Source of the DNA: Taxawa tesnikishii (nom. ined.) | Taxonomy: Eukaryota > Ascomycota > Dothideomycetes > Dothideales | Length of the DNA stretch: 64,000 bases | Direction of reading: 5' to 3' | NCBI GenBank assembly: GCA_030247885.1 | Contig: JAPDRO010000013.1 | Coordinates: 372,001-436,000 of the forward strand | Program-made: the position numbers and the translations under genes | In this document: positions 2,598-59,566 of the stretch, piece by piece | Numbering within the stretch: position 1 is the first letter of the stretch | How the letters are laid out: each line of letters begins with the position of its first letter | The notes under the pieces: generated by a model | Told to the model about the DNA's origin: nothing | Seen by the model: the letters and a program-made list of their open reading frames with translations, nothing else | Database searches by the model: none

Positions 2598-3275
2598 CTA
2601 GATTCCCAATCCAATCTGGCCCTTCTCCACCATGGTCGCCTCAGTGCGCAGCACATCGGCCCGGAATCTCCGGAATGCAGTCTCGATTCTCTTTCTACTC
2701 TCGGGATCGCGCGATATCGCCCTGTTGGCCGAATAACTACCCGTCAAGAGTCCCGTCTCACCGCCAAAGAACAGCCCACCAAATCCGAAGAAGGTGTATG
2801 TGGCCACATCGCCGAGCGTGGAGGGCTGCAGGTAGGAGTGATGTCTGGGATAGCTTCTATTCAGAAGATCAGCACACCATGATCTTGCCACAAATGAGAT
2901 GGAAGCATGGTTGCGCACCTGTTCTGCCATTCGCGAATTGCACGTGTGTGGGTTTCTCGCTGGCCTTGAACGCGTTGAACATCGCAGTCCTATTCGCGCG
3001 CAGCTTGTACGCAGCGTACAGACCCAGTCCCAAGCCTACGAGCGAGCCAATCGTGGCATGTGTGCTGATCTTCGAAGCGGCGGATTTCAATGTGTCGCGG
3101 TCAGATTGTTGGAGACTGTGAATTGTGTCAGGAAGAGGGGCATGCAATTAGAGCACGCATTGGGTGCCAACCCAAGCAAGAGGGGAACATACTCGTGCTT
3201 GTAGTGTTCTTCGGCCAGATTGCCTAGCTCTGTGCCCATGCTCTTGCGGAACATGGCAAGGGAGTCGGACGACAT
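2598..3275 (-). CDS. Small conserved fungal membrane protein, three exons
   Basis: Exons 3275-3193, 3115-2919 and 2856-2598. Donors are GTATGT and GTGCGC; acceptors are CACAG and AATAG. Phases fit only if one C is restored in the CC at 2831-2832 (G on the + strand). The repaired product is about 179 aa: a polar N-terminus (MSSDSLAMFRKSM), a hydrophobic helix (IGSLVGLGLGLYAAYKL), the segment THVQFANGRTEAIPDITP, a second Gly/Phe-rich hydrophobic stretch (TYTFFGFGGLFFGGETG) and a basic Arg-rich C-terminus (SRKRIETAFRRFRADVL). I remember this layout from uncharacterised proteins of filamentous ascomycetes. Two membrane passes suggest an organelle membrane, possibly mitochondrial, but nothing in the sequence settles location or function. 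Confidence 0.75.
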
Positions 3276-3778
3276 GGTGGGCGTGGTGTATTTGAGTGTC
3301 GTTGAAAGTGGAAGAGTTTGGAGATTGGGGTTCGAAACGAGGCAGTAATTGGAAGATGAAGTGGTACAGATTGCAACGGAGAATAATTGTGGCAGAGAAC
3401 GCTTTGGTTGATGTAGAGGAAGGCTACGGATGTCACCCCATTGCTGTTGACGTCATTGTCGAAGCTCTCTCCAGATTTCCAAGCCGAAGTGAAATGGCCA
3501 CATCACTCTGTACTCATCAAAGAACAGCACGTACGGTCACAGCCTGCTCGGACCTCACCAAACATCACACGATATCTAGTGCGGCTTATCGTACCATCAG
3601 AGGCTGCGACTAGAATCTCACTTCTCGCTGCCTAGCAATCCTAGCCTTTTCCTCAAACAAGAACTACAATGTCCGACTCTATCCAAATGCAAGTAGCAGA
3701 TGCCAGCTAGAAGATGCAGTAGAAGTATGCTTTTCCCCCACCAAAGTGCCAGGTATGCAACCCGTAAACCCGCTGCAT
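3276..3778. other. Intergenic / promoter region
   Basis: About 500 bases between the start of the small membrane protein gene and the 3' end of the PHD/forkhead gene, both on the minus strand. It must hold the promoter of the former and the terminator of the latter. The forward open frames here lack recognisable motifs. Confidence 0.5.
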
Positions 3779-6700
3779 TCACATCTTAGCGTTGAGCCCG
3801 ATCTTATAGTAGTTTTTGGTCCGCTTGAGTCTCCCCAAGGCATCCTATAGATATTGTCAGCCGACCTAGCCTTTGATCGTCTTGGTGTTCCGTACTACAC
3901 TTACCCTATTGTCATCCCTGAACACGAGTTGGTTATCGTAAACCGCCGGGATCAGATGATCAATGTTACCCAGCACGTCTTCCAGACTTTTCGCTTCCTC
4001 CATTTCGTCTCCGCCACCAGCAACCACCATATCCGGCATGCTAGTCTCATTAGAATGTTTTCGAGGCCAGACATGCGCCGAGTATGTACGTCTGGTTCCA
4101 AACCGCTGTTTCCGCGTCGGCCGCTTCTTGATCTGCTCAACCTTTTCGTCCCAATCGATGAACTGCTCCTCGAACTTGTCACCACCAGGTCGGTATGCGG
4201 GATATGCCTCGAACAATTTCTTCACATTGAATTGCTGCGGCCGCAGCGGCCTATCACCAGACGGCGGAGCTTCGTCTTCTATGTTGGAGGTTCGTTCTAG
4301 GTTGCGCTTGTGCTTCGGAGAGGGAACCTCCTGTTGACGCCCCTTTGGTCTTCTTTCCTATCTTCCCAGGGCAACGTGGTTGCATGCCCCTTGGGTACGT
4401 CGACCGGTTCGCTGGCCGTTACGCTGTCGAACGAGATCCCATGTGCGGCAAGGAGCTCTTTAAGTCTTCGATTCTCCGCAGCGAGTGTGTCACGCGATTC
4501 GTCCTCCGATTTTTGCCTTGCTTGTGCTCGACACGGGATTCCGCTCGCTTGGGGCCGTCCTTGCATGGGTATTCTCCAGCAACACTGGTCCCGTCATCGG
4601 TTGCATGCGCCTCTCGCGCTGTGATCTGGTCCGTCGGAGTAGATTGCTTCGATTGGAATTCATGCGGATCTATGTCCATAGCTTCAGAGAGCGTGCTTGT
4701 GCCTGGTGCATGGGACGTGACTGGAGCGACCCGCGGTATTGTGTTCCCCGGTTCTCAGAGATAGATTCCAGCTGCTGTATCGATCTTGGGCTATCCCGGG
4801 ATCCTTTGCCAGAGGGAAGAAACGCCGAGTTTGGGGTGGTCGTGATTTGAGAAGGCGATCTTGACGCCGGCTGTGGTACTGTCACTTGTGCTGATGAGAC
4901 AAGCGCCGTCTCCTTGGCCGACAATGCAGGGCTGCCTGTGGTTTCCTCGTTGACACTAGTGGTGTCTGCAAGTGATGGATTGGGGCGGGTCAGCCATGCA
5001 GGACGCTTGAGCTTGCTCATCACAGTGCTGGGCGCAGATTTACGAGCAACGATCGCCTTGGGCTTTTGGCCACTGTTCGGTGTCTCTTCTCTCTGCGGCG
5101 TTGATTGCCTAGATGTTTGAGGTGTGCGTTTTAAAGGAGGTTTCGCAGCATGCCCCACTGTGGATTTGCGAGCAATAGGCCTTGTCGATTTCCGTGAGCG
5201 ATCCTTCGTCTCTCCCTCTTGCGTGACGGGTGACTCGGTTATTGGCATCCTTGGCTCCGGAGAATGTTGTGCGACAGAAGAAGGTGCAGTTTTGTGAATG
5301 AGGGACCTGGAAACTTTCTGCACACGCGGCGTAGTCTCTTCATGATGCTTGTTGGGTTGTGTAATTGTTTGATGTGGGAGCTCTGCGGAAAGGCTTCCAA
5401 CACGATGAGTCGAAGGACTAGCTTCATTGACTACACGCTCACTCTCAGCTTCAGAAGGCCTTGTTGTTGCATGTGATACCGGGTTAGCCGTCGGCGGTTC
5501 CACCGCGTCTGCTCCGGTATTGGTTTGTTCAGGCCTCGGGATCCACGGCGCTGCGGATGGTTTCTTGTATATGAAATCTTCTGCCCCGTCAAGCAACGCC
5601 CACAAGCCTGGCCTACGTTTCCCATTCTCCTGCTCTTGCGGTTGAAGTTCAAACAAGGGATGTTTGCATTTGCCTTGTTGTTTCTGCGACAGTACTGCAT
5701 TCGTAGCGTTTATCCAATGTTTGTCCGCAAGTGAGTAGCCGGGGATGTTCTCTGAAATCCACTGCGAAATTCCTTTCGGGCGAAGGCGACGTCCTGGGGC
5801 GTTCAAGAGGGCCAATCCAAGCATTTCCGCGTATGTGAGATCAGGCCGATCCGAGTTGGTAGCTTTCTTGTGGCCTTTTGGATGACCCCTTGTAGACGCT
5901 GGGCTAGAAGTTGGACCACTGGAGAAGCTTGTGGAGATGATTGAATCCGGGGCTTTGGTTACATTAAGTCTTTCGCTTCGGTCGGGCCCAGCGTTAGCGT
6001 TCTTCACCACAGGATCTTTGCGTCCTATGTCTGGAGTAGCTTGCTCGTCATGACCAGGATCTCGCTCTGGAGGAGCTGCGGCATTTTCGACGCGTTTGTA
6101 CTGAATGAACATCTCTTTCTCTGCACCTGCATTCGCCTGACCCTTAGGCCCATGTGCGTCGGCTCGGATACTAGGTTTTGGATGATCGTGCCATGGCTCT
6201 GCTTCTTGCGCACGATGCCGCTTCTTTTGTTTAGTTTCAACAGGAGTCACTCGTGCCGGGACGTGCTTGGGATTCTGCCCTAGAACTTCTGGTGCACTAT
6301 CTTTTGAAGCAACCTTGTGGGCAGGGTTGTCTTCACGCTGCGATGATACAACGTCCTCTGCAATGTCACGCTGGACGTTTTCGGAACTTGGCTCGATTGC
6401 GGAGCGGGCAGGAGCGGTTGGTGGCTCTTGCTCGGCTTGTAGGAAAGAGTCATCACATATGCTAATTGTATCTTCTGGTGTCTCAGGGATGGTGCATGAG
6501 TTTCCCTGGGCCTTCTCTGGCGTGAATGGAACCGGTGTGTTCTTGCACTTTGCACTACCTTGTGGTTACTGCCCTGTTCGCTACAAACAGAATGTCAAGA
6601 CTTACCACAATACTCCTCCTGTAGCAGATGGTGCTACAGCCCCAAGAATCCTCTTGTTGCAATGCGAACATTTGGTGTTGAGTTCCCGATGTCTCGGTGG

Positions 6701-8341
6701 GGACGCCGGAACAGCATCCGGTTCAACGCCACTCTGCAATGCTTCGAGGACTTGTTCTGCGTCAGGGGATTCCGGAACCTCAAAGGGGTCTCGCATGGCC
6801 TTCTTGTATGAAAGCGGTACTTCAAGCTTTCGCCGCTTTACTGGACGGTCGGTACCGGTCGGGTTAATAGAGTGGCCAACCTGTACATTAGAGGAAAGCT
6901 TCTTTGGAGCTTGGCCGAATCTGCAACTTCTACCAAAACCGTTTTATTAGCGTAGTACTTCATTTAGGATTAGAAGCGCATCCATGACGTCTTTCTTCTG
7001 AAGCCGATATCAACCGCGGTGCATCTGACTTACCAGCTAGACCCTTCGTGTTGTCGCGCCCGTCGGTTAGAATCTCGGATATGTTTTGAGATGTGTTCGT
7101 TGATCCGGTTGGAATAGCTTGGTTGTGCACACCCTTGCCGAGACGCTGTCCCGCTGAGATGTCTTTCTTGAGACAGCGTTGGCATACAAAGACTGAGTCC
7201 GCACCAACGTTAGCGGATATAATCGGCTTGTGGCATCCCTTGTGGTAGCGCCGGTTGCAGCAGATGCATTTGACCAGCGGGTCCACTGTTGCTGGCCTGT
7301 TGCAGACATAGCAGAGCTTTGACTTGCCACGAGAGGTGCCAGACGACGACCTTGTAGATGCTGATTGCCCACTAAGCAATGACAGGTTGTCGTCAGTACT
7401 CTTGCTTGTTCCGTTTCCCAAACTAGTCCCTTTGCTGGGTTTCTTGCTGCTGACAGGCACAGTGCCAATATCTGGCGGCTCATATTCACTAGATTCTTGA
7501 TCGGCAGATGGCACTGATACAGGCGAAAGTGCACCGGAGGCATCTCTTTCAGAAGCTGCCTGCAACTGTGCTGCTGGGACCTGACGTACAGGATCATACG
7601 CAGGCCCGAAGTGAGACGGAGTTGCTTCGGCAAACGAACGCTCGAAAGGATTGTTCGGATAATCTCTTTCCCAATCGGAAGAGATTGAGGTGGGCCTGGT
7701 TCTGGTGGAAACCCCTCGGAATGAAAACTCGCCGCGTGCTGAAATACTGCTACCTGCGTGCTCTTTACTCCAGTCGTTGCCGGCGAGCCCTTCATCCTGA
7801 AAGCCTTTGGGCGGCAGAGTGTTTCTGGGGAAAATGAGGGTCTCCGCATGGCCCTCGGCATTTTCGGAGGCTCTCTGATAAATTGCCCAGTATTCTTTAG
7901 CGCCGTCGATTGTTGCCCTCCTGAGTCCGTGTAGTCGTCATCCCTATACGCTGGTTCTGGCCTGTACCTGTATGACTCTAAGCGGGGATGTTCTGGGGCG
8001 CGAGATGTCCATTCGGCCTTCCGGGAAGGACCGTTATCATATCTAGGTCTGTGAGAGTCACCGCTGCGCCGTGCTTGCAGACCGCTACCCTCGCGAATGA
8101 AACGTCGTGATAACGGTGGTGAGGGCGAGAATTCGACTGGCGAGCGCGGTGATTCCAAAACTGGCCCACCCCGACGTTGATGTGGACTGGATCTTTGTGG
8201 AAGAGCTGCTGTTGACGTATGGTCCTAGAAAATGATCTAGTTAGTGACCTTGTGCAGCATGAATGAAGTGTTGTTGGTGAATTGAGATTACGCGGATGGT
8301 CAGATCTTTTCAGTTTTGTTTTGGATCGTCAGTTCGCTCAT
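3779..8341 (-). CDS. Large PHD finger / GATA-like finger / forkhead-like nuclear protein
   Basis: Five-exon model: 8341-8292, 8224-7034, 6929-6606, 6548-3905, 3844-3779. The four introns have donors GTAATC, GTAAGT, GTAAGT and GTAAGT, and the first has a CTAAC branch site. Six single-base slips in homopolymers (8307-8310, 7916-7918, 6903-6905, 4746-4749, 4510-4514, 4340-4343) must be repaired; the product is then about 1,426 aa. In order: Arg/Ser-rich N-terminus; C4HC3 PHD finger (CYVC ... CICC ... H..C ... CQRC, about 7160-7310); a second Cys pair (CSHC, about 6670); a winged-helix/forkhead-like domain (LTYAEMLGLALLNAPGRR, then QWISENIPGY, HWINATNAVLS and GLWALLDGAEDFI, about 5560-5850); a Ser/Thr/Pro-rich region; a short coiled coil (TLAAENRRLKELLAAHGI); and a conserved basic C-terminus ending NYYKIGLNAKM. 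PHD fingers read histone tails and forkhead domains bind DNA, so a chromatin-linked transcription regulator is likely; the target is unknown. Confidence 0.8.
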
Positions 8342-9377: not shown

Positions 9378-12183
9378 ATGGATTTCTTGAAGAGCGCCGT
9401 AGCGTCCGCCATCTCCAAAGGACCCGCTTTTCCCTACTCCTTCGGCGAGAGGGTTGACGTCGACCAGTCTATCTGGACAGTTCAGAACGGAACAAGAAGA
9501 GTACGCAGCCTTGCCCCAGCATCGACATGGGTGGTCAGCAACTAACGGTCTCGCACAGGAAGACGGCTCTAAGTGCAGCATCTTCTCCTTCGACGTCAGC
9601 GCTAACAAGTCACGACTGCCGCTAGCGAAGAACGCATTACGAAAGTTCCGCACACTGCGCCATCCTGGCATAGTAAAGGTCTTGGACACGGTCGAGGTGC
9701 GTCTTCGCCATCCCTTACCGCGCATACACTGCTTATTGGAGCGCAAGCTAGACAGACACCTACATCTATGTTGCGACTGAGCGAGTGACACCTTTGGGCT
9801 GGAAGACAAAGAGGAAAGCCATTTCAGAAGAGAGCATCAAGTGGGGCTTGCACAATATAGCGGTAGGCTGGACCATGCATGCTGTTGGATACAGAATAGC
9901 TGAACTTGGTTTTGCAGAAAACGCTGCGGTTCATCAACGATGAGGCGACATCCGTCCATGGAAGCGTCCGCGCCTCGTCAATCTTCACCAACGAGAGTGG
10001 AGAATGGAAGCTAGGCGGCCTGGACATTCTGAGTTCAATGAAAGAGGACGACGCCGTTATCTACGTAAGCATCTGGGTTGGTTCTGCTGTACGATCAGAA
10101 GCACTGACTGCGTCAGACCTATGGGAGTCTTGTACCTGATTCGGGGCGCTATGCCGCACCCGAAGTAGCAAAGGGAGGGTGGGATAGCATCAAACGTAAC
10201 CCGGTATCTGCTGTGGATTCCTACAACTTCGGTATTCTGATATCGGAAGTCTTCAATGGCGGCTTTTCGGGCTCAGATCAAGTTGGTCAAACAAAGGGCA
10301 TTCCTTCTAGCATGCAACCAAGCTACAAGCGACTGTTGCATGCCAGCCCAAAAGCCAGACTCAGCGTTGGGCACTTTCTCGAGCAGGGGCAGAGGAGCGG
10401 TTCATTTTTGATACTCCGCTCATCCAACTGACTGAAGGTATCGAGAATCTGGGACTGAAGACAGAGACTGAGCGGGAAGCATTCTTGAAGTAAGGGGTTC
10501 TTCATACTCCGACGGATTTGCTCAACTATTGACTCTCCCTAGTGAACTCGATGCCGTTGCAGAATCGGATGATTTTCCAGAAGAGTTCTTCAAGATCAAA
10601 GTTCTGCCGGAATTGCTGAAGTCATTGGAGTTCGGTGGCGGAGGGCCCAAAGTTTTTGCATTGGTTATGCGCATTACCAAGAAACTTTCCGTCGAGGAAT
10701 ACGATTCACAGATCACGCCCGTCATTATTCGGTTGTTCAGCAGCCCGGACCGGGCATTACGCGTGTGCTTGCTCGACAACCTTTCACTCATGATTGATCA
10801 TCTCTCACAGAAGGTTGTTAATGACAAGATCTTCCCTCAAATGGTATGTCTCTGCATAAACGACCAAGCATCTCAGCCTGACAAGATATCAGGTCACCGG
10901 CTTCACAGACTTGGCTCCTGTTGTGCGAGAACAGACCGTCAAAGCAATATTGATCATCATTAATAAGTTGTCTGACCGTGTCATCAATGGCGAGCTCCTG
11001 CGATACCTTGCAAAGACTGCCAATGATGAGCAACCCGGAATTCGAACAAACACGACCATCTGTCTTGGGAAGATTGCACGTAATCTTGGAGCCAACGCGA
11101 GTATCTCTCTCATGAAAGTAACGCGCATTTGTTGACCTGCTTTCTAGTCTCGAGCCAAAGTCCTCCAAGCAGCATTTTCGCGATCCCTAAAGGATCCATT
11201 CGTCCATGCTCGTAACGCAGCTCTGCTGGCGCTAGCGGCAACAGCTGACCTCTTCTCGGAGGATGACTGTGCTATGAGGATGCTTCCTGCTATTTGCCCC
11301 TCGCTTGTGGATAGAGAAAAGTACGCTTCCTCTTCCAGTGGGCGATGGAACTACGCTGACGACTGACAGGATCGTACGAGACCAAGCAAATAAGACTCTA
11401 GAGGCGTACTTGCAGCGTGTCCGCAAATTCAGCCAAACAATGCCCGACAGCGTGCTGCCACCACCCGAAACCGCTGCGTCGAACGCTCCGCGCATGAGCA
11501 CACCACAGCAGGAAAACTCCTGGGCCGGATGGGCCATCTCCTCCTTCACCAACAAGCTCACAGCCGCCAGCGGTGAGATCCAGCCGAACAGTAACGGTGT
11601 TGTCATCAAGCCCACACTCGACCGTTCTGCATCCACACCTCCCGCGCGTTCGACTCTTTCGGCAAGTCCCGCCTCTCAATTGCGCCCTTCGCCTTCGTCG
11701 ACACCCTCCGCTCCCGCCGTGCCCCGTGTCTCCTCCAACCTTCGCACCGCAACACCGGTAGAAGACGAGGGTTTCGGAGACGACTGGGGCGCCATGGACG
11801 ACGGCGACGACGGGGATGCTGCAGACGCCTGGGGCGATCCGGAACCTGAGCCCGTCGCCAAGTCTCGTGCGGCCCAATCTCCCACACCCTCCAGGCCGAC
11901 GACAGCGGCATTCGACGATCAGGGCGAGCCGGACTTTGCTGGCTGGTTGAACGCACAAGCGCAGGCTAAAGGCAATGCGAAGAAGAAGCCCCTGCCAAAG
12001 GGCCTCAGTAAAGCGAAACCAACGGCGGCGACGGCGCCTGCGAAGCCGGCCGTGGGCGCGAGGACGACGGTGGCTGCTAGACCGGCTGTGAGCAAGCCGG
12101 CAGCGGAGAAGAAGGCGAACAAGCCCGCGCCGGCTACGCCGGCCGTAGACGAGGATGATGACTGGGGAGAGGCATGGGGATGA
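9378..12183 (+). CDS. CEX1: SCYL1/CEX1-type N-terminal pseudokinase with HEAT repeats
   Basis: Nine exons: 9378-9500, 9559-9696, 9752-9862, 9918-10064, 10117-10489, 10543-10843, 10893-11117, 11148-11320, 11370-12183. The ATG has a strong context (CCACCATGG). One T must be restored in the T run at 10405-10409; all phases then fit and the product is about 801 aa. The N-terminal third is a protein-kinase fold without catalytic residues: where DFG is expected it reads KLGGLD, and no HRD loop is seen. HEAT-like repeats follow (for example KVLPELLKSLEFGG and NAALLALAATADLF), then a Ser/Pro/Ala-rich tail with acidic DDWG motifs (FGDDWGAMDD, DDDWGEAWG). Yeast Cex1 collects tRNAs at the nuclear pore and hands them to eEF1A; animal SCYL1 also works in COPI traffic. 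The function is inferred from the family. Confidence 0.93.
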
Positions 12184-12553: not shown

Positions 12554-14274
12554 TCAACCGAAAGCATGCTCTTCAGCTCCCAGTACCCTCCCCTCAGTCC
12601 TGTTGCCATAAACACCACCATCCAGGATCCACTGCTCGTTGTCGTCGTTGTCGTCCTGCACTCTCCTCCACGTGCTCCTCGTCCTTCCCTCTGCTTCACC
12701 ATCGATACCCTTTCCTTTCTCCTTCCTCGCCACCGGCCTGATCATTGCTCCCAGCAGCGGGTTCTTACTGAACGCGCCACCCTTCCCACCCCTTCACCAT
12801 CAGCAGCAGCAGCAGGCGGCTCCTCCATCCCGGCGTCATCCTCCTCGGCATCTTCCTCCTCGGCCGGCCTCTCGACCTCCGCCATCCTTCTGACAATCTT
12901 GCCACCCACGACATCGATGCTGGCGACCACCTTCCTCTTCTCCCACTCCGGGCGCGCATTCCACTCCAGCTCACGCAACACCTTCTGCTGCCGCTTCAGC
13001 TGCATGGCACGCTCGGCCGGACTGGCCCACATGTTCGTCCCCGAGCTCGGGACGTCAAAGTCCGCGGCTTCGTCGTGGATGCGCGTGCGGCGTGCGTTGT
13101 GCGCCTGGAACGCCAACAGCTTATCCCTGTGCTCCTTGGCCCTGCTCAGCGTGGCATCGACCTCTCCCTCGCTATCCGACGGCGGGGCGGAGGACAGCGG
13201 CGAAGCGGAAAGGGATGGGGTGGCGGAAGTCGAGGATAGGAAGTCGCGGCCTGTGAACGCGCGGGGTTTCTGGGACACTTCGGCACGCTTGTGTGCCGCG
13301 TTGTTGAACGCTTGTCGCTCCTTGCCGCGCTCGTCTTTGAGCACGCGCACCATGGAGCTGATTTCCTGCGATGAGAGGAGAGGCGTGGAACAGAAGGTGC
13401 AGGGACCTAGACCTTCTTTCACGCAGATGATCTTTCCGCAGTTCAGGCAATTGGGTGCGATGGTGAGGAGAGGATGCCGTGTAGCCATGCAGTTGCAGCG
13501 ACGCTTGGCAAGGTCTTCGGCCGAGGTGGCGGAGGAGGAAAGAGTTGGGTTGGTCTGCAGTTCCAGAGACCGGATGGCGGAGTCGAGGTCACTGAGTGTG
13601 TTGGAGGCGCCGTGCATGTTCTGCCCACCGGCGATAGTGACCTTGGCTTTGGCGGGTGCGGGCGAGGCTTGTCGGGATGAGTTGCGCGACGACTTTGGCG
13701 CGAGTGCATCCGAGACCAGAGAACCTGCTGCCGATGGCGGCGGTTTGGGCGAGGCGTTCCGGGAGGCTGACGTTGAAGCTGGCAGCGGAACTTGCAGAGC
13801 ATCCGGTCTCTCCTGCAGAGCCAAGGCATTGGCCAAAGGTGGCTCTTTCTGCTTCTTCTGCCGCGACGAACTGGCCATGTAGTCCTCCTCATCCCGCTTG
13901 ACGTATGCGCCAGCAACATTGCCGCGGTCTTCAACCTGCCTTGCTGGTAGGCTGTGAATGTTCGGCTTCTTCTTCTGCTGTCGGGGTCGTGCGCGGGGTA
14001 CTTCTGACGCTCCGGGCGCAGGTGACGCGTTTGCACTGCGGGAGGCGGTTGATGGAGGAGGTGCAGCTTCCGAGGGTGCTTTCTGCCGACGCGAGTTGAA
14101 CGATGTTATGAACTCAAGGGCCTGGGGAGAGTCGCCCAGCATGTTCTTGAGATGCTCCGCTGCTACATCTTTCGAAAGAGTGTCGGTATAGGCGATGATT
14201 TGTTTCAGGGAATCCTCGTCCAGTGGGAGCAGGCGCGAGAGCTGAGGGAGCGCCCACGTTTGTAGAGCAGCCAT
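12554..14274 (-). CDS. RQT4: TRIP4/ASC-1-type zinc finger protein (RQC-trigger complex subunit Rqt4)
   Basis: Single exon. The first ATG of the frame is at 14274 (MAALQTWALPQLSRLLPLD); the upstream extension in the open frame has no ATG. An N-terminal CUE-like helical domain (LPLDEDSLKQIIAY, LGDSPQALEFI) is followed by low-complexity Ala/Ser/Pro/Lys sequence, then the diagnostic C2HC5 finger (CNCMATRHPL ... NCLNCGKIIC ... GPCTFCSTPL, about 13370-13500), then coiled and acidic sequence with an Ala repeat. The frame breaks at 12780-12782 (CCC). Restoring one base adds the conserved ending with SKNPLLGAMIRPVARKEK and TWRRVQDDNDDNEQWI, for about 573 aa. Yeast Rqt4 binds ubiquitinated collided ribosomes and helps the Slh1 helicase split them; the same role is inferred here. 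Confidence 0.9.
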
Positions 14275-15866
14275 GTTCGTCGGATTCAAAGAGGCTGTGT
14301 GTTGCTCTATGGGGAGTTGTTGTAGCTGTAAGATGTTCCTGAACAGAATGACTATGGGCTATGGCTATGGGCTATGACGCCGACGTCCTCAAACGGTTAC
14401 CGAATATGTGGATTCACTTGAGCCGCCGCGGGGTCGGTCCGCACTGCAGAGCTTGGCGTTCTCTAACGCATGTGCTTTCACGAGCGAGCCAGGTGCCCCA
14501 ACGTACCATGTCGGGTCATCTCATCCAATACAGCTCTCGAACTGTTGTTTGTGCTTTAGATCCTGATTTCAGTCAGCTTCCACGAAGGAGCACACTTCAG
14601 TCCTCTAGGCATGTTGAAAGACAAATCGGCGATTCAATCTCCTTTGACGACTAGCCGAATGCCAGTGCTTTCAATGGAGTGGCGACGAACAACCAACACA
14701 AACGGGGTGGTGTTGAATGTTCGCATGCCCGTCTGCGGAACAGACGGGTTATGGCAGATGAAGAAGCTGTTTGTATAGACGCTAGAACCACGCTGACGGG
14801 GGCGGTGAGGGTTAGTGGCTGCGAATCGACAAAACAGTGTGAATGGACGTACGCAGAGCACAGCCCTTTGCGTTGAGCGTGCCGTTGACTGTGATCACAT
14901 CACGAGCTCCTGCATCAACTCTTTCTGGTGGCGCCCAAGTGAACGTTACGCTGGACCGAGCCTTCACCCGTCGCACATTCCTTCCCCTCCTTTTCTCGTC
15001 TTCCAATATAGATCGTTCGACTGGAGAAGTTTGAGATATCGTCTCCTCACACAGGGAGAAGCCTCGACAAGCAGCCGCCGTGACGTACAAGAGGCGTAGT
15101 TCCACACTCTGACTTTGACCAAAGTTGCCCAAGAAGCTGTCCTCATAATCCTCATAGCCCAACTACGCGCTGCAACAGTAGTGTCTTCATTCCTGTCGTG
15201 GAGTTTTTGCATCCTCTAACGGAGATGAAGACCTCACCAACACCACCCAGACCCGGTGAGCCCAAGTGCGAACATCGAACGGAGCATCCGAACTCCGATG
15301 TTGTGCTGTTGCACGTGGAGCCTAGTGGTTATGATCTCTCGCGTTGACAGCCCTAGATTTGGCGCTCCATGTGTTTCCAAAGGTGCCGGATGGATGATGT
15401 CAATCACGGTTGCCACGAATAGCCCATCCCACGTCATGCGCCCAACATATGCGCCAGGGATTTGACCGCACGCTGCATTGAAACTTCGTTCTTGCAGTGT
15501 CCAGTCCACCCTTGCGACGGCCGTATACCCTCTCTCATAGGAACATTTCTTTCACAGCTTGCATCTCTTCCAGGGACCTGGAACCCCTGTTCCTCATTTT
15601 TACGAGCATCACACGGATTTTTGGTATTTTTCTGTCTTTCTGCCTTGTACCCAATCGTAACCGAATGAAGAAACCTCTTTTTCGTGGACGCCCTTGTTTT
15701 GAATGTGCAGAAGAACCATTAAGCCGTTTGAAACCCCTCCACCCAACAACCACCGTTATAACCTCTGCAATAAAAGTAGTTTGTTTGGAACGGCGGTCAA
15801 CGAGCACGCAGTTAACACGCGGACGCTGTGCCGAAGGGTGTTGATTGCATGCGCATGGTTAGTGGA
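14275..15866. other. Intergenic region, promoter of the RQT4-type gene
   Basis: About 1.6 kb between the start of RQT4 and the 3' end of PAB2, both minus strand. It starts with an imperfect tandem of CTATGGG/CTATGGC (about 14350-14375), about 80 bases upstream of the RQT4 ATG. The open frames present (up to about 116 codons) have no motif and overlap on opposite strands. Confidence 0.5.
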
Positions 15867-16616
15867 TCAGTATGGCGAGTAGCCTGCGCCACCACGTCCG
15901 CGGTAGCCGCCACGGTAAGGGCTGGTAGAATGGTTAGCTGCCTGTAAGAGTAAAGGTAGGAGAGATGAACTTACCCGCCACGACCACGAGGAGGATAACC
16001 GCCTGGTCCGCCGTAACCGCCACGGCCGCCATGGGGCGTACCATAACCTGGCGCACCGTAACCACCGCGACCACCACGAGGGGTCCGCCTCCACGGCCGC
16101 CTCCACGTCCCCTAGTCATTCCGGGGAGGTTGGTGCGCTTTGGGACGACCTGTAGGAGGTCAGTATGGATTTCTTTCTTGGAAGCGACGTGAGGGCATCA
16201 AACAACCTTAAGGTTTCTCCCGCGGAAAACACTCTCGTTGAGCACCAGCGCATTGTTGACCAAACTTGGCTCAGCAAACTCCACATAGGCATATCCCTTG
16301 GGGTGTCCGGTGAACTTGTCAAGCAGGATTGTGACGCGGTTGATGCTACCACAGCTCTGGAAGTGCGACTGAATCTCTTCCGGGCTTGCGCCGTAGTCGA
16401 CGTTGCCGACGAAGATACTGCGGTTGTCGATATCTTCCTTGCTTTCGCGCAGGTCCGGCGAGTTCAGCTCGGCTTGCATCTCGCGCAGCTTCGCGGCTTC
16501 AGCTTCCATCTCTTGTACGCGCTTCTTCATTGCTGCGATCTCCTCCTCGTCCCCGGCATCGTCGTCACCAACGTCAACGGGCTCCTCTTCTCTCGGGGTG
16601 CGTCGTTGTCGGACAT
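15867..16616 (-). CDS. pab2: Nuclear poly(A)-binding protein (PABPN1/Pab2 family)
   Basis: Three exons: 16616-16207, 16149-15975, 15921-15867. Single bases must be restored in GGGG at 16595-16598 and 16080-16083; phases then fit and the protein is about 213 aa. Layout: acidic N-terminus ([18 protein letters not shown]), a coiled-coil helix ([18 protein letters not shown]), one RRM with RNP2 [10 protein letters not shown] and RNP1 KGYAYVEF, then PKRTNLPGM and a Gly/Arg/Tyr-rich tail (RGGRGGYG, ending YSPY). A coiled coil, single RRM and RGG tail is the signature of PABPN1/Pab2, which coats new poly(A) tails in the nucleus, stimulates poly(A) polymerase and feeds exosome decay. RGG tails are usual substrates of arginine methyltransferase. 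The first donor (AAG|GTTGTT) is weak but gives the conserved NLKVVPKRTN junction. Confidence 0.92.
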
Positions 16617-17232
16617 TGTGACAGGCGTGGGTGGTTGATCTCTGTGCAGTCTGGTTGTCCGAGTCAAGGTCAGCTGTTGTATGTGGTGCGCCGAAGCAAT
16701 GGGCATACCTGAGGTGTCTGAAGGGTCAAGGGTGATGCGCTACTGCAAGATAGATAACAGCTGCTTGGTTGAGAAGGTGTGTGGCACGCGTGGCTTGCGC
16801 AGCTTTGTATGACAGATATGGCGGGTTTGAAAGCGGTGGACAAGACTTGCAGCAACAGAACGTGACTCGCTGAATAGACGCGTGAATGGGGGACAAAGTG
16901 AAGCTTGGTCAACATTGTCATGAAGGCTGGTCGGCTGCAGAGAGAGCCGGCCGCCAAGCAGATCAAGCGTGCTGAGATGTACGCGCAGAATAGAGCAGGG
17001 AGGGTTATGGTGTACTTAACGCTGGTGATCCATCCGCCTTACATTGCTGTATCTCCTTGTTTCCTCTGCTGTTCGCACAGAAGTTGCCAGACGGGTGAAG
17101 CGTAGCTTGAGTTATCGAAACATTGCCCCCATTCCGTCAAGAAGCTGGACCTTCCAGTGAGTGCCAAGCCACTCATTTCACCTTACTACTGCCGTATTAC
17201 GACGATGAAGCTTATCCATACAGCTCCACATC
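16617..17232. promoter_or_regulatory. Divergent promoter region
   Basis: 616 bases between the starts of PAB2 (-) and the proton channel gene (+). No gene seen; open frames are short and without motifs. Confidence 0.4.
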
Positions 17233-23279: not shown

Positions 23280-23911
23280 ATGCCTCTTCAAGCCGGCGAC
23301 AAGTTCCCCGAGGATGTCCACTTCGAGTGGGCTCCTATCACCGATGAGGACCCAACTGCCTGCGGCATTCCCCAGGACTTGAACGCCAGCAAGGAGTGGA
23401 AGGGCAAGAAGGTCGTTCTCGTCAGCGTTCCAGGTACTTCCTCTTACCATCTGACTTCCATTCTAGTCATGCTAGATATAGTAAGATACTGACACATGTA
23501 TTCCCCTAGGTGCCTTCACCCCCGGCTGCCAGGCCTACCACCTCCCACCTTACATCCAAAAGTTTAATGACCTGAAGACCAAGGGGTGGATCTCGTCGCC
23601 GTCATCGCCTCCAACGACGCTTGGGTCATGAACGCTTGGGGCAAGGTCAACCATGTGCCAAAGGACGATATCATCATGCTCAGCGACACCAAGACCAAGT
23701 TCTCGGAGAAGTACGGGTGGCCGGCTGGTATGGGAGATCGCAACGGTCGCTGGGCTATGATAATTGAGAAGGATGGCTCTATCAGCTACGCTGAGAACGA
23801 GAAGAGCCCGCGCGAGGTTACTGTAAGTGCCTTCACTTCAGTGTCGGATCTAGATAGCATGCTAATGCTGGCAAGGTCTCCGGCGCGGACGCCGTTCTTT
23901 CTCGCTTGTAG
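23280..23911 (+). CDS. Peroxiredoxin, PMP20 / Asp f 3 type (Prx5 subfamily)
   Basis: Exons 23280-23433, 23510-23822 and 23876-23911. One G must be restored in GGGG at 23583-23586, after which the protein is 167 aa, the usual family length. The peroxidatic site PGAFTPGCQAYHLP fits PxxxTxxC with its cysteine, and the supporting Arg lies in GDRNGRWAMIIEKDG. The enzyme reduces hydroperoxides with thiols and in fungi is often peroxisomal or cytosolic. The C-terminus SGADAVLSRL ends in SRL, which could act as a weak peroxisomal PTS1 signal. Homologues in Aspergillus and Candida are known human allergens; that is a family property and not shown here. The neighbours give no operon-like context. Confidence 0.93.
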
Positions 23912-25216
23912 GGTAAGGACTTCTCGAAACTCGACGAGAATGCAGTTGCATGGCTCAGAGCTTAGATCAGAAAAAGCGTCGAGAACTCTCATCCGATCAG
24001 ATCCGACGATTTCGTGAAAAGGATAAACCGCATTCTACACTAGAACAGGCCGGTGATCCAACCTAGATACACGAAACGAACGATGAATTCCACCTAGTAT
24101 CGCTGCTGCAGGAGACGTCAAAGCGTGAGAGCCTTCAGTTGCGTCCAGTGTTGTATAAAACTTGGGCAATACTACCACACTCGAGTGCTCCAGTGTAATG
24201 ATCATAAAGAGGGTAGCGAAATGCCATGTCCACGGCAAGAATACACTAACATGAACCAACCTTTCACCACCTACGTTAGCGTAGTCTGTACATAGACGCA
24301 TCCGTCCTCGTCCGCTTCTTGCTCTCCTTTACCTTATCAGTAATCTTTCTACTGCGCGCTTTAGGATGGCGAGTTGTTGTTAAGTGCGAATCCTGGTTTC
24401 GTCTTTGACGGGCTTCATTGAAGCATCTACCGTTGACTGGCCTTGAAAGGGGCTTTATATCGTGTATCAATCTACAGAGCCAATAACAGAGAGAAGAAAC
24501 AACGAGGCTGAACACCTGCACGTGGGCGGAGAAGCTATGCATGAAGGATTGGGTCGTGATACTGTATCAATCCTGATCGGCACACGACGGGCTACCTATT
24601 CATCTCCTCTGTTGAACGTGTTCAAAGAGCAGGACACGATCCACGAACAGTCCAGCGAGATGGTATCTAGATCCACGTCTCCAAAGCTGCTGAGTTGTTG
24701 GGCGTAACGGCAATTGCCAATATGCCCTCAGAGGTTGAGCAAAGCATCCACCCTGAGCCACGAGCCCAAAAGGTTTCTCGTGGTCCCATAGAGGAACGAA
24801 CTCCGGTACACGACCGCTGCCAAGGCGCAGTGCTTCGTTCTCAAACCCGAGTTGTGCAATGTAATGCGCAGCGTACCGTGTGGTATATAAGGGTATGTAG
24901 CGTCACAAACGACCCGCTTCCTTCAAAGAGAAGCTCTCAAGAGCAGGAGATACAGGACGAATCGTCGGTCTCACGCGTCCATGGATGCCAACAGTGAAGA
25001 GGCTTCAGCCTTGACAACTCCTCCTGAGAGGGTAGAAAAGTTGCCTGCGGACGCGGTTGGAGGAGAAAAGAAGATCACGTCCGCGCGCTTGAAGAAATCT
25101 GATACTCCCGCTTGTCCTCGCTTTCGAAACAGCTTGGATTTCTTGGCAGCAGTCATTTTCTAGCCAGATTTGCAAGCTTTCTGTGCTTCGTTCCCATCTG
25201 TTGACATGCCACCACC
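23912..25216. promoter_or_regulatory. Intergenic region with TATA-like element upstream of MRS6
   Basis: 1.3 kb between peroxiredoxin (+) and the Rab escort protein gene (+). A TATATAA motif at 24884-24890 lies about 330 bases upstream of the MRS6 ATG and may be a promoter element. No gene is convincing; open frames are under 100 codons. Confidence 0.4.
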
Positions 25217-35812: not shown

Positions 35813-37157
35813 TCATTCCATATCCTCTTCTGCGTGGCTGTCATACATTAGGCTAGCAGCCATAACCACAGCACCAACAGCAAGAACAGAGAGCCGTGCT
35901 CTCGATATTATCTTTCTCCATTCCGGATCCTTGGCAACTGGCGTCGAGGGAGGAAGCTTCCAATCTTTCTGAGCAGTGACGGCGAGAAGGAGCAGAGACT
36001 GCAGGGTATAAACAGCGTCGTTTCCCGCATTGTGCCAACCGTGTGAACCCCCGGTGTGAATGCCATTCAGGTGTTTCCACATCTTCAGTAATCCTTCCGG
36101 GATCTGGGCAAACACTGCGAGACGGGAGGTGTCAATCGTTCGTGATAGCTGCCTCTTGCCGTAGACGTCGTATTTCAACCAACGTGCAAGAATCTGAATA
36201 TCGTTGTTGAGACCATGACCGATTAGGATAACCGGCCGATCGCGAAACAGCTGGTCAAGAGCCTTTACCATTCCTATATGTGAGACCCAAGTGCTTTCGC
36301 CGAATCGGAATTGCTTGTGCTTTTTTGTAAATGTCCCGGGACAAACATGTGTATGGCTCGTATGTGCTGGAACCATGTTGCTGCTTTAGGTCCGGGAGGT
36401 GTGTGTCTTACTGCTCCAGTATCAAGCGTTGCAATGCCGAGTTCAAGGATAGAGGTGTCGTTGAACTCGGTATCGATCGCGACAAGGACCGGGCTTTCAT
36501 GGAGGAGGCGTCTGAGGACAAGATTGGGGTGGCGACGTAGCTGCTCGTTTGCGTGACCGATTCTAAGAGAGGCACGGACGAATTCCAGGTTCTGTACGCA
36601 TTCTTTGATGAAACATAGGCGGGCAAGTCTCTCCCTGTCGGTTCGGCTGGGTTCGCCATCGCTCAGAGATTCCTCTGACGCTGAGGTAGCATCACATGTC
36701 AGACCGCTATAACCGGCAGAAAACAAGCCAACCGGTCGACAATCCTTTATAGTCGGCCCTTGTACGCCAGCGTTTGATGGCGTCTTCTTTGGTGGAGCAG
36801 TGACAGCGTTGCGATTTAGACTGAGCCTTGTGTGTTAGGACGGAGCAGAGCAGATGCCGTCTCGGGAGTTTCGCGGGCGATGGCGGTTGACACTCGGCCG
36901 CGCGATGTTGGTATCAAGATGAGATGCTCCGGAAGGTTTGATGAGAAAAGAAACGGAGAGACTTACGGTGCACGAAAGTGGGGAAACAACTTGACCCATT
37001 TCGAAGCGGACACACCCTTCTTGTGCTTCCCTGTCGCATGATGCTGCCTCCTATCAGAGGCATTGAAGGAGGCAATCCCTCTTCTCGGTGCAAGCATTGG
37101 GGTGCCGGTCGTGGCGGAGACGTACGCAGACCCGATTCTCAGTCTCATGCTGGGCAT
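35813..37157 (-). CDS. Gfd2/YDR514C-like DEDDh exonuclease-fold protein with C-terminal membrane anchor
   Basis: Exons 37157-36967, 36820-36412 and 36366-35813, with donors GTAAGT and GTAAGA and a CTAAC branch in intron 1. One A must be restored in the six-T/A run at 36321-36326; the protein is about 384 aa. The RNase H-like fold shows DxE in LVAIDTEFNDTSILELGI, the central GHGLNNDIQILARW and the final HNAGNDAVYTLQSL (H-x4-D), that is, all four DEDDh acidic/histidine positions, so catalysis is possible. The C-terminus has a hydrophobic helix (LSVLAVGAVVMAASLMY) followed by acidic residues, like a tail anchor. The N-terminus is basic (RLRIGSAYVSATTG, APRRGIASF) and could target mitochondria. 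Yeast Gfd2 was found as a suppressor linked to Dbp5 and mRNA export; the substrate is unknown. Confidence 0.8.
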
Positions 37158-38375: not shown

Positions 38376-40053
38376 ATGGGTCTAGCACAGGAGGCGCAGC
38401 GTGTTGCTGCTGAGTTCGAATACTCCGCCCAGCATGTCAACAAGGCAGTCAAGCACTTTGTCAAGCAGATGAGTGTGTCAACGTGGAACGGGAGGGCCAG
38501 GATGCCCAGAAGCTGATTGTATGCGCAGACGAGGGCCTGGAGAAGAGCGGAGCTACCATGCAGCAGATCCCGACCTATGTGACGGCTGTGCCCAACGGCA
38601 CCGAGAAGGTATGCTCGCCATTGCCGAATACTACGGCTGGTCAGTTGACGAGGATAGGGTCTCTACATGGCCGTGGACCTGGGTGGAACCAACTTCCGTG
38701 TCTGTTCCATTCAACTGCACGGCAACAGCACCTTCTCCCTCACGCAATCAAAAGTCGCCATCCCCCGCGAGCTCATGGTGGCCAAGACCAGCAAAGAACT
38801 CTTCTCCTTCCTCGCCAAGCAGATTGGCAACTTCCTGGAAACCCACCACCAAGATCACTACCACTCCTCCGTCCGCCGCAGAACCACGGTATCCGACCCA
38901 TCGGGATTCAAGGACGAGGAGATCTTCAACCTCGGCTTCACTTTCTCCTTCCCAGTAGACCAAGTGGGCATCAACAAGGGCACTCTGATCCGCTGGACGA
39001 AGGGTTTCGACATTGCCGACGCCGTCGGCAAGGACGTGTGTACGCTCCTCCAGGACGAGATCGATGCGCTCCACCTTCCCGTCAGAGTCGCTGCTCTGGT
39101 CAACGACACCGTGGGTACGCTGATGGCACGCTCGTACACGTCACCAGGCAAGAGCGGAACACTCCTCGGCGCCATCTTCGGAACCGGCACCAACGGCGCA
39201 TACGTTGAGAAGCTTGACAGGGTCACGAAGCTCAAGAGCATGGAGACGGCTGGCTACGACACCACAACCGGCGAGATGATCGTCAACACCGAATGGGGCA
39301 GCTTCGACAACGAGCTGGCCGTGTTGCCCAACACACCTTACGACCGGGATCTCGACGCCGAGAGTGTGAACCCTGGCATCCAGATGTTCGAGAAGCGCAT
39401 TTCCGGCATGTTCCTCGGTGAGATCCTCCGCCGTGCCCTCCTCTCGCTGGTCAAGGACCCCAAGGTCAGCCTCTTCAGCGACGAGCACAGCAACACAAAC
39501 GACGTGCACAGCACGACCACCATTGCCGACGACAGCCCGCTCTACAAGCAATGGGGCATCGACACCTCTTTCCTGTCCATCGCTCACGGCGACGCTTCGG
39601 CCGGCGCAAAGGTCACCCGCCAGACGCTCGACAGGGACTACGGCATCTCCGCCGCATCTGCAGAGGACGCCGAAGCGGTCAAGTTGATCGCCGCCGCCAT
39701 CGGCAAGCGCGCCGCCCGTCTCGCAGCCGTCGCCATCGGCGCCGTCGTGCTCGCCACCGACAAGCTGAGCGCGCCCAAGGACATCCACCACACATCTGCC
39801 TCCGAGGCCAAGGCCGCTGAGGACGACATGGTCGACATTGGTGTTGACGGATCATTGGTCGAGTTCTACCCCGGCTTCGAAGACTACATCCGCGGCGCTG
39901 CGCGAGACCGAAGGCATCGGCGCCGAGGGAGAGAAGAGGATCCGCATCGGTATCGCCAAGGACGGATCGGGCGTGGGTGCGGCTTTGATCGCGCTGGTCG
40001 CGGATAAGATGGCCAAGGAGGCCGTGATCCGGGAGGCCGAGAGGGGGGATTAG
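38376..40053 (+). CDS. Glucokinase (hexokinase family)
   Basis: Exons 38376-38472, 38529-38608 and 38658-40053 (donors GTGTGT and GTATGC). The start MGLAQEAQRVAAEF matches fungal glucokinases. Visible motifs: QIPTYVTAVPNGTEKGLY, phosphate 1 loop AVDLGGTNFRVCSI, connecting and sugar-binding residues in FTFSFPVDQ and RWTKGF, phosphate 2 loop AALVNDTVGTLMA, IFGTGTNGAYVE with the catalytic region, and TEWGSFDNE. Near the 3' end the frame slips within CGCGGCGCTGCGC (39887-39899) by one extra or two missing bases; after that the expected ending ETEGIGAEGEKRIRIGIAKD and VGAALIALVA appears in the next frame. The predicted protein is about 524 aa. It phosphorylates glucose at C6. The slip is unlike the others, being in GC dinucleotides and not in a homopolymer. 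Confidence 0.93.
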
Positions 40054-44098: not shown

Positions 44099-45802
44099 AT
44101 GGAGTCCTACATCGAAAAGAAAGACACGGGCCGAGAACACATCGAGGATGCCGAACACTCTGAGCGGAGGCAGAGTATCAGCGATGACCTCACAGCCATG
44201 TCTGGCATTGAAGCCACCGCTGCATCGACCGCGGCCTGGTTGATCTCAGTCACCGTCTCCCTCGGAGGTTTTTGTTCGGCTACGACACGGGCTACATCTC
44301 CTCCGTCCTGGTGACGCTCGGAACATCTCTGGGTCACGAACTCGACTCCGGCGAGCAGGAACTAGTCACCTCCCTTACCAGTGGCGGAGCGCTTGTCGGC
44401 GCAGTTGCAGCGGGACTCACTGCTGACCGCTTTGGTCGCAAGATGCCAATTTGGGCCGCATGTGTCGTGTTCGTAATTGGAACGCTTCTACAAGCCGCCG
44501 CATACTCTGTTGAACAGTTTGCCGTAGGCCGCTTCGTCGTCGGCCTTGGCGTTGGTTCTGCAGCAATGATTGTTCCGCTTTATAGTAAGTCAAGCCATAC
44601 GCGCTGAAGGCCAGCGGCCAGGTGCTAAGAATCATTCCAGTCGGAGAGTTAGCGCCCGCCAAGTACAGAGGCCGTATGATTGCTTTCAACAACATGAGTG
44701 TCACGTTCGGACAGTTCATCGCTAGCGCTATAGGCGCGGGTCTTGCACACGTAAAAGGAGAAGGCTGGCGTGGCACTGTCGCTATCGGAGCAGCGCCAGC
44801 CCTTGCTCTTGCAGGCATGCTGGTCTTCTGTCCCGAGTCTCCTCGTCAGCTGGTTGCTCACGGCCGCTACGAGGAAGCCGACACCGTCCTGCTGCGACTC
44901 TACAAAACTTCTTCCGCCGAGCAGCGGCAGGAGAAGATCAAGTCGATTGAGATGTCCATCCAGGAAGCGACGGCAGCCATGGCAGACGAATCTCTCTGGG
45001 TCTCGTTCCGTCGGATCTTCAACACGCCAGCAACTGGAAGGGCTGTTCTGACTGCTTGCTTGATCATGGCCATCTCCCAACTAGGTGGCTTCAACACTCT
45101 GATGTACTACAGCGCGACGCTCTTCGCGCTCGTCGGCTTCAACAACGCTACAGCCGTCGCCATCACCGTCTCCGGAACCAACTTCGTTTTCTCGATCGTC
45201 AACCTTGTCTTGGTCGACAAGTTCGGCCGCCGCATCTTGCTCTGCATCACCGTTCTTGGAATGGCCATCTGCATGCTCATTGCGGCCGTTGCGTTCCACT
45301 GGATCCCGATCAACCACGACTTGGTACTCGAGAGCGACAACGTTGGCTGGGCGGGTATCGTAGTCCTCGTCACTATCATCTGTTACGTTGCTTGCTTCTC
45401 CTCTGGTGTTGCGACCATTGCATGGATCGGCACCGAACTCATTCCCACCGAAGTCCGCGCTCTCGGAACTATGCTGGTAAGTCCGTTCTTATTCGCCTAC
45501 TTCTATCATCGCTAACACAAGCACCAGAACACCGTGACCTGCTGGAGCACCAACATCATCATCGCTTCGACCTTCCTCTCCATGATGAAGGGTATGACCC
45601 CTCAGGCGCGTTTGGCTTCTACTGCGGCATTTGCTTCTTCGGCTGGTTGTTCATCGTCTTCTGCTATCCCGACGTGAAGGGTATGCCGCTGGAGACCATC
45701 CGAGAAGTCTTCCGCCATGGTTTTGGTCTCAGATACTCAAGACAATGGCAGAGGGAAAACAAGTACACACCCAAGGTCACACAGCAGGTCTTTGGCCACT
45801 AG
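44099..45802 (+). CDS. MFS sugar / myo-inositol-type transporter
   Basis: Exons 44099-44584, 44641-45476 and 45528-45802 (donors GTAAGT). Two single-base slips (T5 at 44269-44273, CCCC at 45598-45601) are needed; the protein is then about 532 aa. Motifs: GGFLFGYDTGYISSVL in TM1, ADRFGRKMPI, GRFVVGLGVGSAAMIVPLY, GELAPAKYRGRM, PESPRQLVAHGRYEEAD, GGFNTLMYYSATLF in TM7, DKFGRRILL, TELIPTEVRALG and the C-terminal YPDVKGMPLETIREVF. The family is sugar porter, close in pattern to inositol transporters (TM1 GYDTG and the E-V-R-A-L-G block), but the substrate cannot be assigned. It imports sugar or polyol with protons. It is divergently placed to a Zn2Cys6 regulator, a common arrangement for inducible transporters. 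Confidence 0.92.
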
Positions 45803-48680: not shown

Positions 48681-49407
48681 ATGTCTTCCACAACTCCTTA
48701 CGTTGGCCAATCCTACGAGCAGGACCCGCGCTGGACCGCCGTCGACCGCTACACACTCTCTCACCTCTATCCCCCTCCTCCCCATACGCCTCCGCACTCG
48801 AGCATGCCGCCTCTCTCGCGTCCTCTCGCGGCCTCCCAGACATCGCCGTCTCCCCGCGCAAGGCGCATTCTTGGCTCTCCAGGCACGGTTACTGCGCGCA
48901 GAGCGCGTACTCGAGGTCGGCACTTTGGGCGGGTACAGCACCATCTGGCTCGCATCCACCGCTCCCTCGATCAAAGTGACGACGGTGGAGGTGAACTCCG
49001 CACATGCGGCTTGCGCACGCGAGGCCATCGATGCCGCGGGGCTGGGCGACAGGGTCGAGATCTTGGAAGGTGCAGGGGTGGACGTGCTGCCGGGACTCAG
49101 ACGGCAGGTCGAGGAGGGGAAGAGGAAGCCGTTCGATTTCGTGTTTATTGATGCGGATAAGGAGAACAACCTCAACTACTTGAACGAGAGTATACCCATG
49201 GCGAGGCAGGGCGCGTGTATAATCGTGGATAACGTGGTAAGGAAGGGAAGCCTTGCGGACGAAGAGACGGCGAAGACGGACAGTAGGGTGCAGGGTGCCA
49301 GGGCAGTGGTCGAGGGAGCAGGGAAGGATGATAGGGTCGAGGGCGTGGTTATGCAGATGGTGGGAGAAAAGAACTATGATGGATTTCTAATTCTTTCGGT
49401 AAAGTAG
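48681..49407 (+). CDS. Caffeoyl-CoA / catechol-type O-methyltransferase
   Basis: Intronless, ATG 48681 (MSSTTPYVGQSYEQDPRW). Two single-base slips close together (CCCC 48780-48783 and TT 48867-48868) must be repaired, giving about 242 aa. The SAM-binding fold is clear: RVLEVGTLGGYSTIWLA (motif I), TTVEVNSAHAACAREA, FDFVFIDADKENNLNYL with the metal-binding Asp residues, and GACIIVDNVVRKGSLADE. This is the Mg2+-dependent class I OMT family that methylates catechol-like hydroxyls. In fungi related enzymes act in pigment or phenolic metabolism. Its neighbours do not form a biosynthetic cluster, so the substrate is open. Confidence 0.9.
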
Positions 49408-57320: not shown

Positions 57321-58943
57321 ATTTATGCGAAAATGCTATGAGGTCCAGGAATCGAAGGTACTTCGGCTAGCGCTGGAAGATGTCGCAACGGTGCACTGAA
57401 GACGGGAATTCTTGTCTGATTAACAGCGTTCTCTGGTTAGCTCGCTACACCAATCTGCAGCACACTTTGTGTGTCGGCCGTCGCCTGTCCGATGTTCGCA
57501 AGACTTTGATGATGTTGTTGTGGTCTGGGGAACCTAAGAGGCTAAGAGGGATCTGCGGGTCAGACAGAGCCTCAACAAACATGTCAAACACGAGCCGAAA
57601 ACTCACAAAAAGCCTATTGCAACGTTAACCTCACCCTATCAACGTCACTTGGGGGAATTGGTATGACGACGACGAGGTGATGGCCGCTCCTCTGGCATTA
57701 GTCTGAGAAGCGTTTCACTTGCGAGACATGACCAGTGGATTTGATGGCGTGCGGAACAGTCGCTGCTGCAAGATTCAGCATTGGGTACGGGCGAGAAATC
57801 ATCTGGAAAAGATGGTCAAACGTTGATTCCCATTCATCGAGGATGCAGCAAGGAAGTGTCGCTTTTGTTCCTTTCTCAAGCGGAAAAGTGTTGCTTGTCG
57901 CGCCGTCGCATTGGTGCGAAGGAATTGAAGTAGTTCGAACGATCTCGACGCTGACAGTGGGGAATCTCAGGGACAAGGGAAAGTGCGATGCGCTTGCAGA
58001 GACAAAAGGTATTGCATTCTGGGTAGCTGTTGTCATCATAGTGGCATCGCCCGTGTAGTAGATGTATACCAAATGTCCCTTCAAGTGTATTGCATCTGCA
58101 CCCCTGTTTTGCCTGTATGAGATCACAATTCAAGACTTGGAAAAGTCCCCGAGGTGCCAGTCACCACGACACCCGGCGTCTGCGCCCCTTCCTGTATTAT
58201 GACTCTGGCCTAGTCGAGGGCCTGTTTCCCTTTTTGGCGTCGCGCGGCCGGCGTATAGTGTCATCCAGCCACTGTGTGTTGCCTCGCAGCCCGTACCTTC
58301 TCTCGTGGCCTACTGCGCGGCTACATCTGGCGGCTGTCGGACCTATGCACTGCCACTCTCCCACTTGTGGATGACTCTTTGCGCCTTCCTTTACCCTTTC
58401 TTAACGCTCCTGATAACCTGTACCTGGCCGTCTGAATCTCTCCGGATTTCAGACTGCATTTAGGTTCCATTGTTGCAGAAGCAAACTTCTTTACCGATGA
58501 TGGACGGATTCTGCTTAGGCATCTGCTTTTCATGCTGCTTAGTCTACGGATGAAGACAGGCTGATCGAGTAGATGCTACTGCTCTTTTTCCGGCCCGGTC
58601 CAGATTGGACCAAAACTGGATTGAGGGGACACGATAGAGTAGCGACGCGAACGAGCAGAAAACATGCTCAATGTTACACTAACGCAGAAGTTTCCTGCAA
58701 GGCATCAGTAAACCACTCCCATAGACTTTCTGTTTTCTTCGGTATGCTGACTGGTGGTGCGGGCAGCAAATCGTTTATGAGCTACGCTCATCCCAGACTC
58801 ATCCCATATTTTTTTCTCTCTATCATACAGCAGCAGCAGATTGCAAATGCACTCTCACTGCACGCATACCGACAATTTACACCCACAGCTACTCACACCA
58901 ACGTCCGGAGGGCAAGAAGCCTGCCCGCCGCAGCTACGGGTGG
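57321..58943. other. Divergent intergenic region
   Basis: 1.6 kb between the starts of LST8 (-) and the Lys/Glu-rich protein gene (+). A minus-strand open stretch (about 57698-58030) of about 110 codons from an ATG has ordinary composition but no motif and no splice context, so it is left uncalled. A polypyrimidine/A-rich stretch precedes the + gene. Confidence 0.45.
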
Positions 58944-59566
58944 ATGAAGAATCCCGCTCCTGGCTCGGTGGAGTGGCATGTGGGGCACGTGAAGAAAGAG
59001 AGCGAGGCTAATGCGGCGAAGAACTGGGTTTTCTTTGAGGAGGCCGAGAAAGAGATGGCCGCTCCGCAGGCCAAGAAGCATGACGAGCGCAGGAAAAAGC
59101 TGGCCGACGCACGCCAGAAAAAGGAGGAGGCCAAGAAGCAAGCCAAGAAGCAAGCCAAGAAGCAACAGAAGAGGAGGAGGAAGGAAGAGGCAGAGGAGCA
59201 GGAGAGGTCCAGCAAGCGCGCCAAGCAGCAGGCGGCTAGCGAGGATGGTGAGGACGAGGACGACGATGAACTGCTCCTCACACCTCAGCTGGCAGCCGCA
59301 CTCAAAGAAGATGAGAGCCTGCAGAAAGGCGACCGGCAAAGACCTATCCGCCGCTCGCCGATACCTCCGCCACGATTACCATCACGGCTCGGCAGACTCG
59401 CTCGATCAATCCTGAACGCCTAACAAGTATGCTCTCAAACGAAGCTTGTACAGATAATGACAGTGTCACCGGTGCTCTGACTTGGTATACAGGCGTGAAG
59501 GGAGGGGTGATAGATGCGTTTGGCTTCGAGTGCCTGGATAGGAATTCTGATATTCGCACTACATAG
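58944..59566 (+). CDS. Lys/Glu-rich coiled-coil protein, uncharacterised
   Basis: ATG 58944 (MKNPAPGSVEWHVGHVKKE). One A must be restored in AAA at 59338-59340; the frame then runs to TAG at 59564-59566 and gives 207 aa. The middle is a strongly charged coiled coil (KKHDERRKKLADARQKKEEA, KKQAKKQAKKQQKRRRKEE) with a likely nuclear localisation signal (KRRRKEE, SSKRAKQQ), then acidic DGEDEDDDELLL. The C-terminus, seen only after repair, is well-formed sequence (INPERLTSMLSNEACTDND, VTGALTWYTGVKGGVIDAFG, FECLDRNSDI). An upstream exon is possible, because the frame is open before the ATG with RSYGW. No family recognised; the composition suggests a nuclear or nucleolar protein. Confidence 0.6.

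Follow-up and report, generated by a model that had tools for sequence, protein, structure and literature searches.

Frame breaks in the Taxawa tesnikishii JES_119 assembly and their probable origin in consensus errors at short homopolymers

In Nanopore assemblies of the ascomycete Drechmeria coniospora, reading frames are disrupted by homopolymer errors, which are corrected with short reads and many of which escape BUSCO (PMC7500977); a second study shares the homopolymer concern for Guppy 3 data (PMC9453082), and in the long-read bacterial assemblies of the Kastor study most errors are false deletions, which occur most often after runs of four to five bases (PMC12007338). Here we examine frame breaks in a 64,000-base window (positions 372001-436000 of contig C5) from the assembly of Taxawa tesnikishii strain JES_119 (29,367,862 bases, 34 contigs), in which an original prediction had listed 24 frame slips, all but one of them equal to one missing base. 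The window resembles D. coniospora in being ascomycete sequence from Nanopore reads with apparent homopolymer frame breaks (PMC7500977), and the Kastor assemblies in that false deletions, apparently for the most part at short runs, fragment genes (PMC12007338). It differs from the former, where polishing added more insertions than deletions, in that losses prevail in JES_119, and from the latter, which are bacterial and dominated by A/T runs, in that 11 of the 24 listed positions are touched by a C/G run of four.

T. tesnikishii is a black yeast of the Dothideales from biological soil crust, and the describing preprint gives JES_119 as 29,383,553 bases in 38 scaffolds, slightly unlike the deposited total, with Nanopore coverage of 194.58x (Guppy 3.4.4) and Illumina coverage of 25.38x (PMC11195213). 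The assembly was made by the MaSuRCA hybrid method; the methods section names no short-read polishing, and "polish" appears once in the preprint, about Exonerate (PMC11195213). A literature search by species name returned only this describing paper, and published criticism of the assembly was not searched for. We consider the frame breaks almost certainly to be base-calling and consensus errors of a Nanopore-dominated assembly, with the genes intact in the living genome: short homopolymers, mostly of true length 4 to 6, would have been read one base short, the consensus would retain the shortened run, and the living genome would carry the missing base. This undercall reading is supported by all five sites open to an independent check. 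It also fits the Guppy 3.4.4 reads, with no polishing named, and the BUSCO completeness in Table 2 of the preprint, 97.4% for Illumina versus 92.9% for Nanopore (PMC11195213). A parallel difference is given for strain JES_112 (84.7 versus 73.4; PMC11195213).

Direct comparison with an independent assembly

Three query frames from the window each had a match of 100% identity to one protein of an assembly designated 'lgn', which, judging from this identity and from its contigs of 7,372 to 19,800 bases, appears to consist of short-read contigs of T. tesnikishii. Among scored candidates with lengths of 0.55 to 1.75 times the query, the 'lgn' protein was the sole match of the forkhead query, and no Taxawa name occurred among the 120 matches listed for the GH3 query. 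The 'lgn' proteins P0002, P0121 and P0122 were aligned to the window with losses and gains at like cost. P0002 (MRS6) agreed at 341 of 342 codons with a single loss at 26422, the odd codon being its own first residue; P0121 (forkhead gene, 749 residues) agreed at all 746 codons over 6112-3869, with one-base losses at 4746, 4510 and 4340; and P0122 (GH3) agreed at all 888 codons over 35000-32335, with a single one-base loss at 32519. Pooled, 1975 of 1976 aligned codons were identical and all five listed breaks spanned were read through, while no gains or further indels were found in the three compared frames (5938 coding bases). The resulting rate of about 0.84 losses per kb (5 in 5938 bases) fits an earlier estimate of about one slip per kb of coding sequence, and the proposal of consensus undercalling was likewise supported, each of the five checkable breaks being a one-base loss confined to the JES_119 assembly.

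At these five sites certain one-base additions yielded the independent peptide, and one-base removals never did. Lengthening the run restored the peptide at 5/5 sites, yet this was one of 3 to 7 options at each, so that placing the missing base in the run itself is parsimonious rather than proven. The longest run touching each position, as placed in the original list, was 2 bases at 2/24 sites, 3 bases at 6/24 and 4-6 bases at 16/24. Homopolymers also mutate by slippage, and with most breaks touching runs, the losses could in principle be real mutations, as in many young pseudogenes or a degenerating culture. However, all five testable sites are intact in the independent assembly, whose proteins are otherwise identical save one residue, and conserved genes such as MRS6 are hit without other decay in the compared frames. 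We rejected pseudogene decay on the absence of any other indel and the near-complete codon identity in these frames, and regard real mutation as highly improbable.

The predicted damage to gene annotation was visible in the NCBI MRS6 protein (P0001), which carries 12 out-of-frame residues after 26422, jumps from 26461 to 26761 and so into the last exon, thereby lacking a conserved stretch present in P0002 and in relatives, and then adds nine further out-of-frame residues up to 26788. Conserved frames resume beyond the breaks in both MRS6 and GH3, as they would if programmed ribosomal frameshifting were common in this fungus and bridged them. Of the 20 sites examined, however, only one (29674) had an in-frame XXXYYYZ heptamer within about 15 bases, and the old frame ran on for anything from 8 to 847 bases before its next stop, so that no common signal was seen; the independent assembly needs no frameshift at five sites. 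With no motif shared among the 20 sites, programmed frameshifting was rejected, and we find it scarcely credible as a general explanation.

Run lengths and the sign of errors across the genome

Run counts were compared with Markov simulations as a yardstick. Coding sequence held a single G/C run of 6 against 12.6-17.4 simulated, and 56 G/C runs of 5 against 73.5-86.5, while G/C runs of 4 were in excess (512 against 425-444). An excess at 4 with deficits at 5 and 6 is the pattern expected from shortening. In non-coding sequence the G/C deficit was weaker.

The sign of the errors was assessed with an ab initio detector built on a period-3 model, in which frameshift penalties were symmetric and the training sequence was the window plus 20 further stretches of 10 kb. 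A first version with cheap introns masked slips by false introns in the manner of a gene caller, and intron costs were then raised. Over 136,757 coding bases the detector called 59 losses versus 24 gains; outside the window the calls were 39 versus 15. Spike-in recovery was 103/114 for losses and 86/110 for gains, and relative to this recovery ratio the loss excess was significant both overall (binomial P = 0.0009) and outside the window (P = 0.004). Losses outnumbered gains genome-wide rather than in particular genes. An apparent frame change near 1025265 in a GDI-family gene on contig C34 was explained, by eye, by an intron. No tRNAs were found by ARAGORN in the window or the 20 stretches.

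Although losses prevail, the claim that the slips always run in the same direction fails on a break near the C-terminus of a glucokinase gene, at about 39891, which was absent from the original list and has the opposite net sign, corresponding to the gain of one base or the loss of two. When residues are counted against 6p4x, 6r2n and 9f3k, a single extra base is favoured, with two missing bases and a loop one residue longer as the lesser alternative.

This break is one of several points that weigh against an origin in undercalled homopolymers. The independent assembly bears witness at only 5 of the 24 sites, and A/T runs showed no depletion at length 5 in coding or at 7-9 in non-coding sequence. 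The detector P values assume symmetric false calls, and both classes hold intron artefacts: judged by eye, several of the gain calls that fall in the window are introns missing from the model, as are some of the loss calls, 44590 among them (examples of such artefacts lie at 9545, 23861, 38477, 38658 and 44590). Of the 8 better supported sites, the detector placed a loss within 15 bases at only 3 and missed or misplaced the other 5 (26422, 26788 and 36321 missed; 4510 and 4746 called 71 and 50 bases away). MaSuRCA, as a hybrid assembler, should draw on the Illumina data, and in the sister strain JES_115 the BUSCO order is reversed (Illumina 90.2 versus Nanopore 92.6; PMC11195213). Finally, overcalls are reported as commoner than undercalls after polishing (PMC7500977), and three genes at 100x are described as free of homopolymer indels after polishing (PMC9453082).

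The listed sites, gene by gene, and their consequences

By frame logic, 20 of the 24 listed sites have open frames on both sides offset by exactly one missing base. The statement that one added base restores a family-typical protein every time was overstated. The independent assembly shows the loss at 5 sites and homologous proteins support it at 3; another 12, read by eye, are consistent with it, and 4 (2831, 8307, 8585 and 59338) are not established (Table 1). Detector calls were used as support only; at the 12 consistent sites a loss was called within 15 bases at 9, while 6903 and 16080 were missed and 7916 was called a gain. A common cause presumably extends from the five sites to these others.

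Short introns or a misjudged gene structure likely account for some of the listed breaks. For the slip at 2831 a 52-base GT-AG intron is probably the better explanation, and at 8307, 8585 and 59338 the frame on both sides could not be established. Short introns are, however, inapplicable to the five sites inside open reading frames that the independent assembly reads through, and to 23583, where residue 80 of structure 5j9b ends and residue 81 begins on the same base, so that one base serves in two codons. Among the sites lacking an independent witness, it is very unlikely that a few true strain-specific frame changes or instances of genuine recoding are hidden amid the errors.

Table 1. Genes and other features of the window, with the grade of each listed one-base loss (shown, by the independent assembly; supported, by homologous proteins; consistent, by the evidence named) and the accompanying evidence
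Feature	Coordinates	Strand	Losses	Evidence
MRS6 (Rab escort protein)	25217..27111	+	26422 shown; 26788 supported	Relatives P0009, P0016 and P0018 shift frame at 26422-26425; at 26788 relatives match the post-break frame (tblastn) and the preceding ten residues resemble them by eye
Forkhead and PHD-finger region, one gene or two	3866..8224	-	4340, 4510, 4746 shown; 6903, 7916 consistent	Pfam Forkhead match, PHD slightly below cut-off; 6903 and 7916 by frame logic
GH3 beta-glucosidase	32332..35579	-	32519 shown; 35205 consistent	P0123 and P0125 shift frame at 32517-32520; detector call at 35200
Type-2 peroxiredoxin (Asp f3-like)	23280..23912	+	23583 supported	Gene ends set by detector; pre-break piece matches residues 56-80 of 5j9b, post-break piece 80-160; Pfam Redoxin 38-60, then 60-144; detector call at 23586
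DEDDh exonuclease-like gene	35813..36834	-	36321 supported (run of six T)	Pfam DEDDh_C (PF21762) split over two frames at model positions 1-56 and 56-186; missed by detector
Kinase-labelled gene	9378..12183	+	10405 consistent	Frame logic; detector call at 10393
C2HC5 zinc-finger gene	12742..14358	-	12780 consistent	Pfam zf-C2HC5; detector call at 12786
RRM gene (PAB2 in the original prediction)	15812..16725	-	16080, 16595 consistent	Pfam RRM_1; frame logic; detector calls at 16587 and at 15964 (116 bases off)
Sugar transporter	28079..29940	-	29674 consistent	Pfam Sugar_tr in both exons; detector call at 29681
Sugar-transporter-family gene	44099..45802	+	44269, 45598 consistent	Pfam Sugar_tr 10-126 and 127-390, weakly 418-452 (E 0.029); detector calls at 44270 and 45596
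O-methyltransferase	48681..49407	+	48780, 48867 consistent	First residue of the post-break piece aligns with residue 46 of 3dul; detector calls at 48771 and 48864
Glucokinase C-terminal frame break	39880..39912	+		Opposite net sign (see text)
Candidate 52-base GT-AG intron	2826..2877	-		Frame stays open without a slip at 2831

Some searches with single pieces of these genes were uninformative. The kinase-labelled gene, which we take to be SCY1-like, gave only weak, unrelated matches when one piece was searched against the PDB; a Pfam search with the pre-break piece of the sugar transporter at 28079..29940 gave no match, and the O-methyltransferase piece between 48780 and 48867 had no PDB match. 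Elsewhere in the window, an open frame of 537 residues at 46739-48352 (+) contains two Ion_trans_2 stretches and is presumably akin to TOK1-type outward-rectifier potassium channels, and an open WD40 frame at 56048-57016 (-), which we assume to be Lst8-like, carries no listed slip.

The identity of the assembly, the absence of the five losses from the independent assembly and the distortion of the NCBI MRS6 model are shown here. The breaks are a data-quality problem rather than biology, an ordinary artefact already documented in other fungi. Long-read assembly errors reportedly affect protein prediction, to go by the title of Watson and Warr (2019), and the consequence is the same here. Counts of lost genes, pseudogenes, introns and gene families drawn from the JES_119 gene set are likely to meet such false breaks, which would probably be repaired if the assembly were re-polished with the authors' reported Illumina reads.
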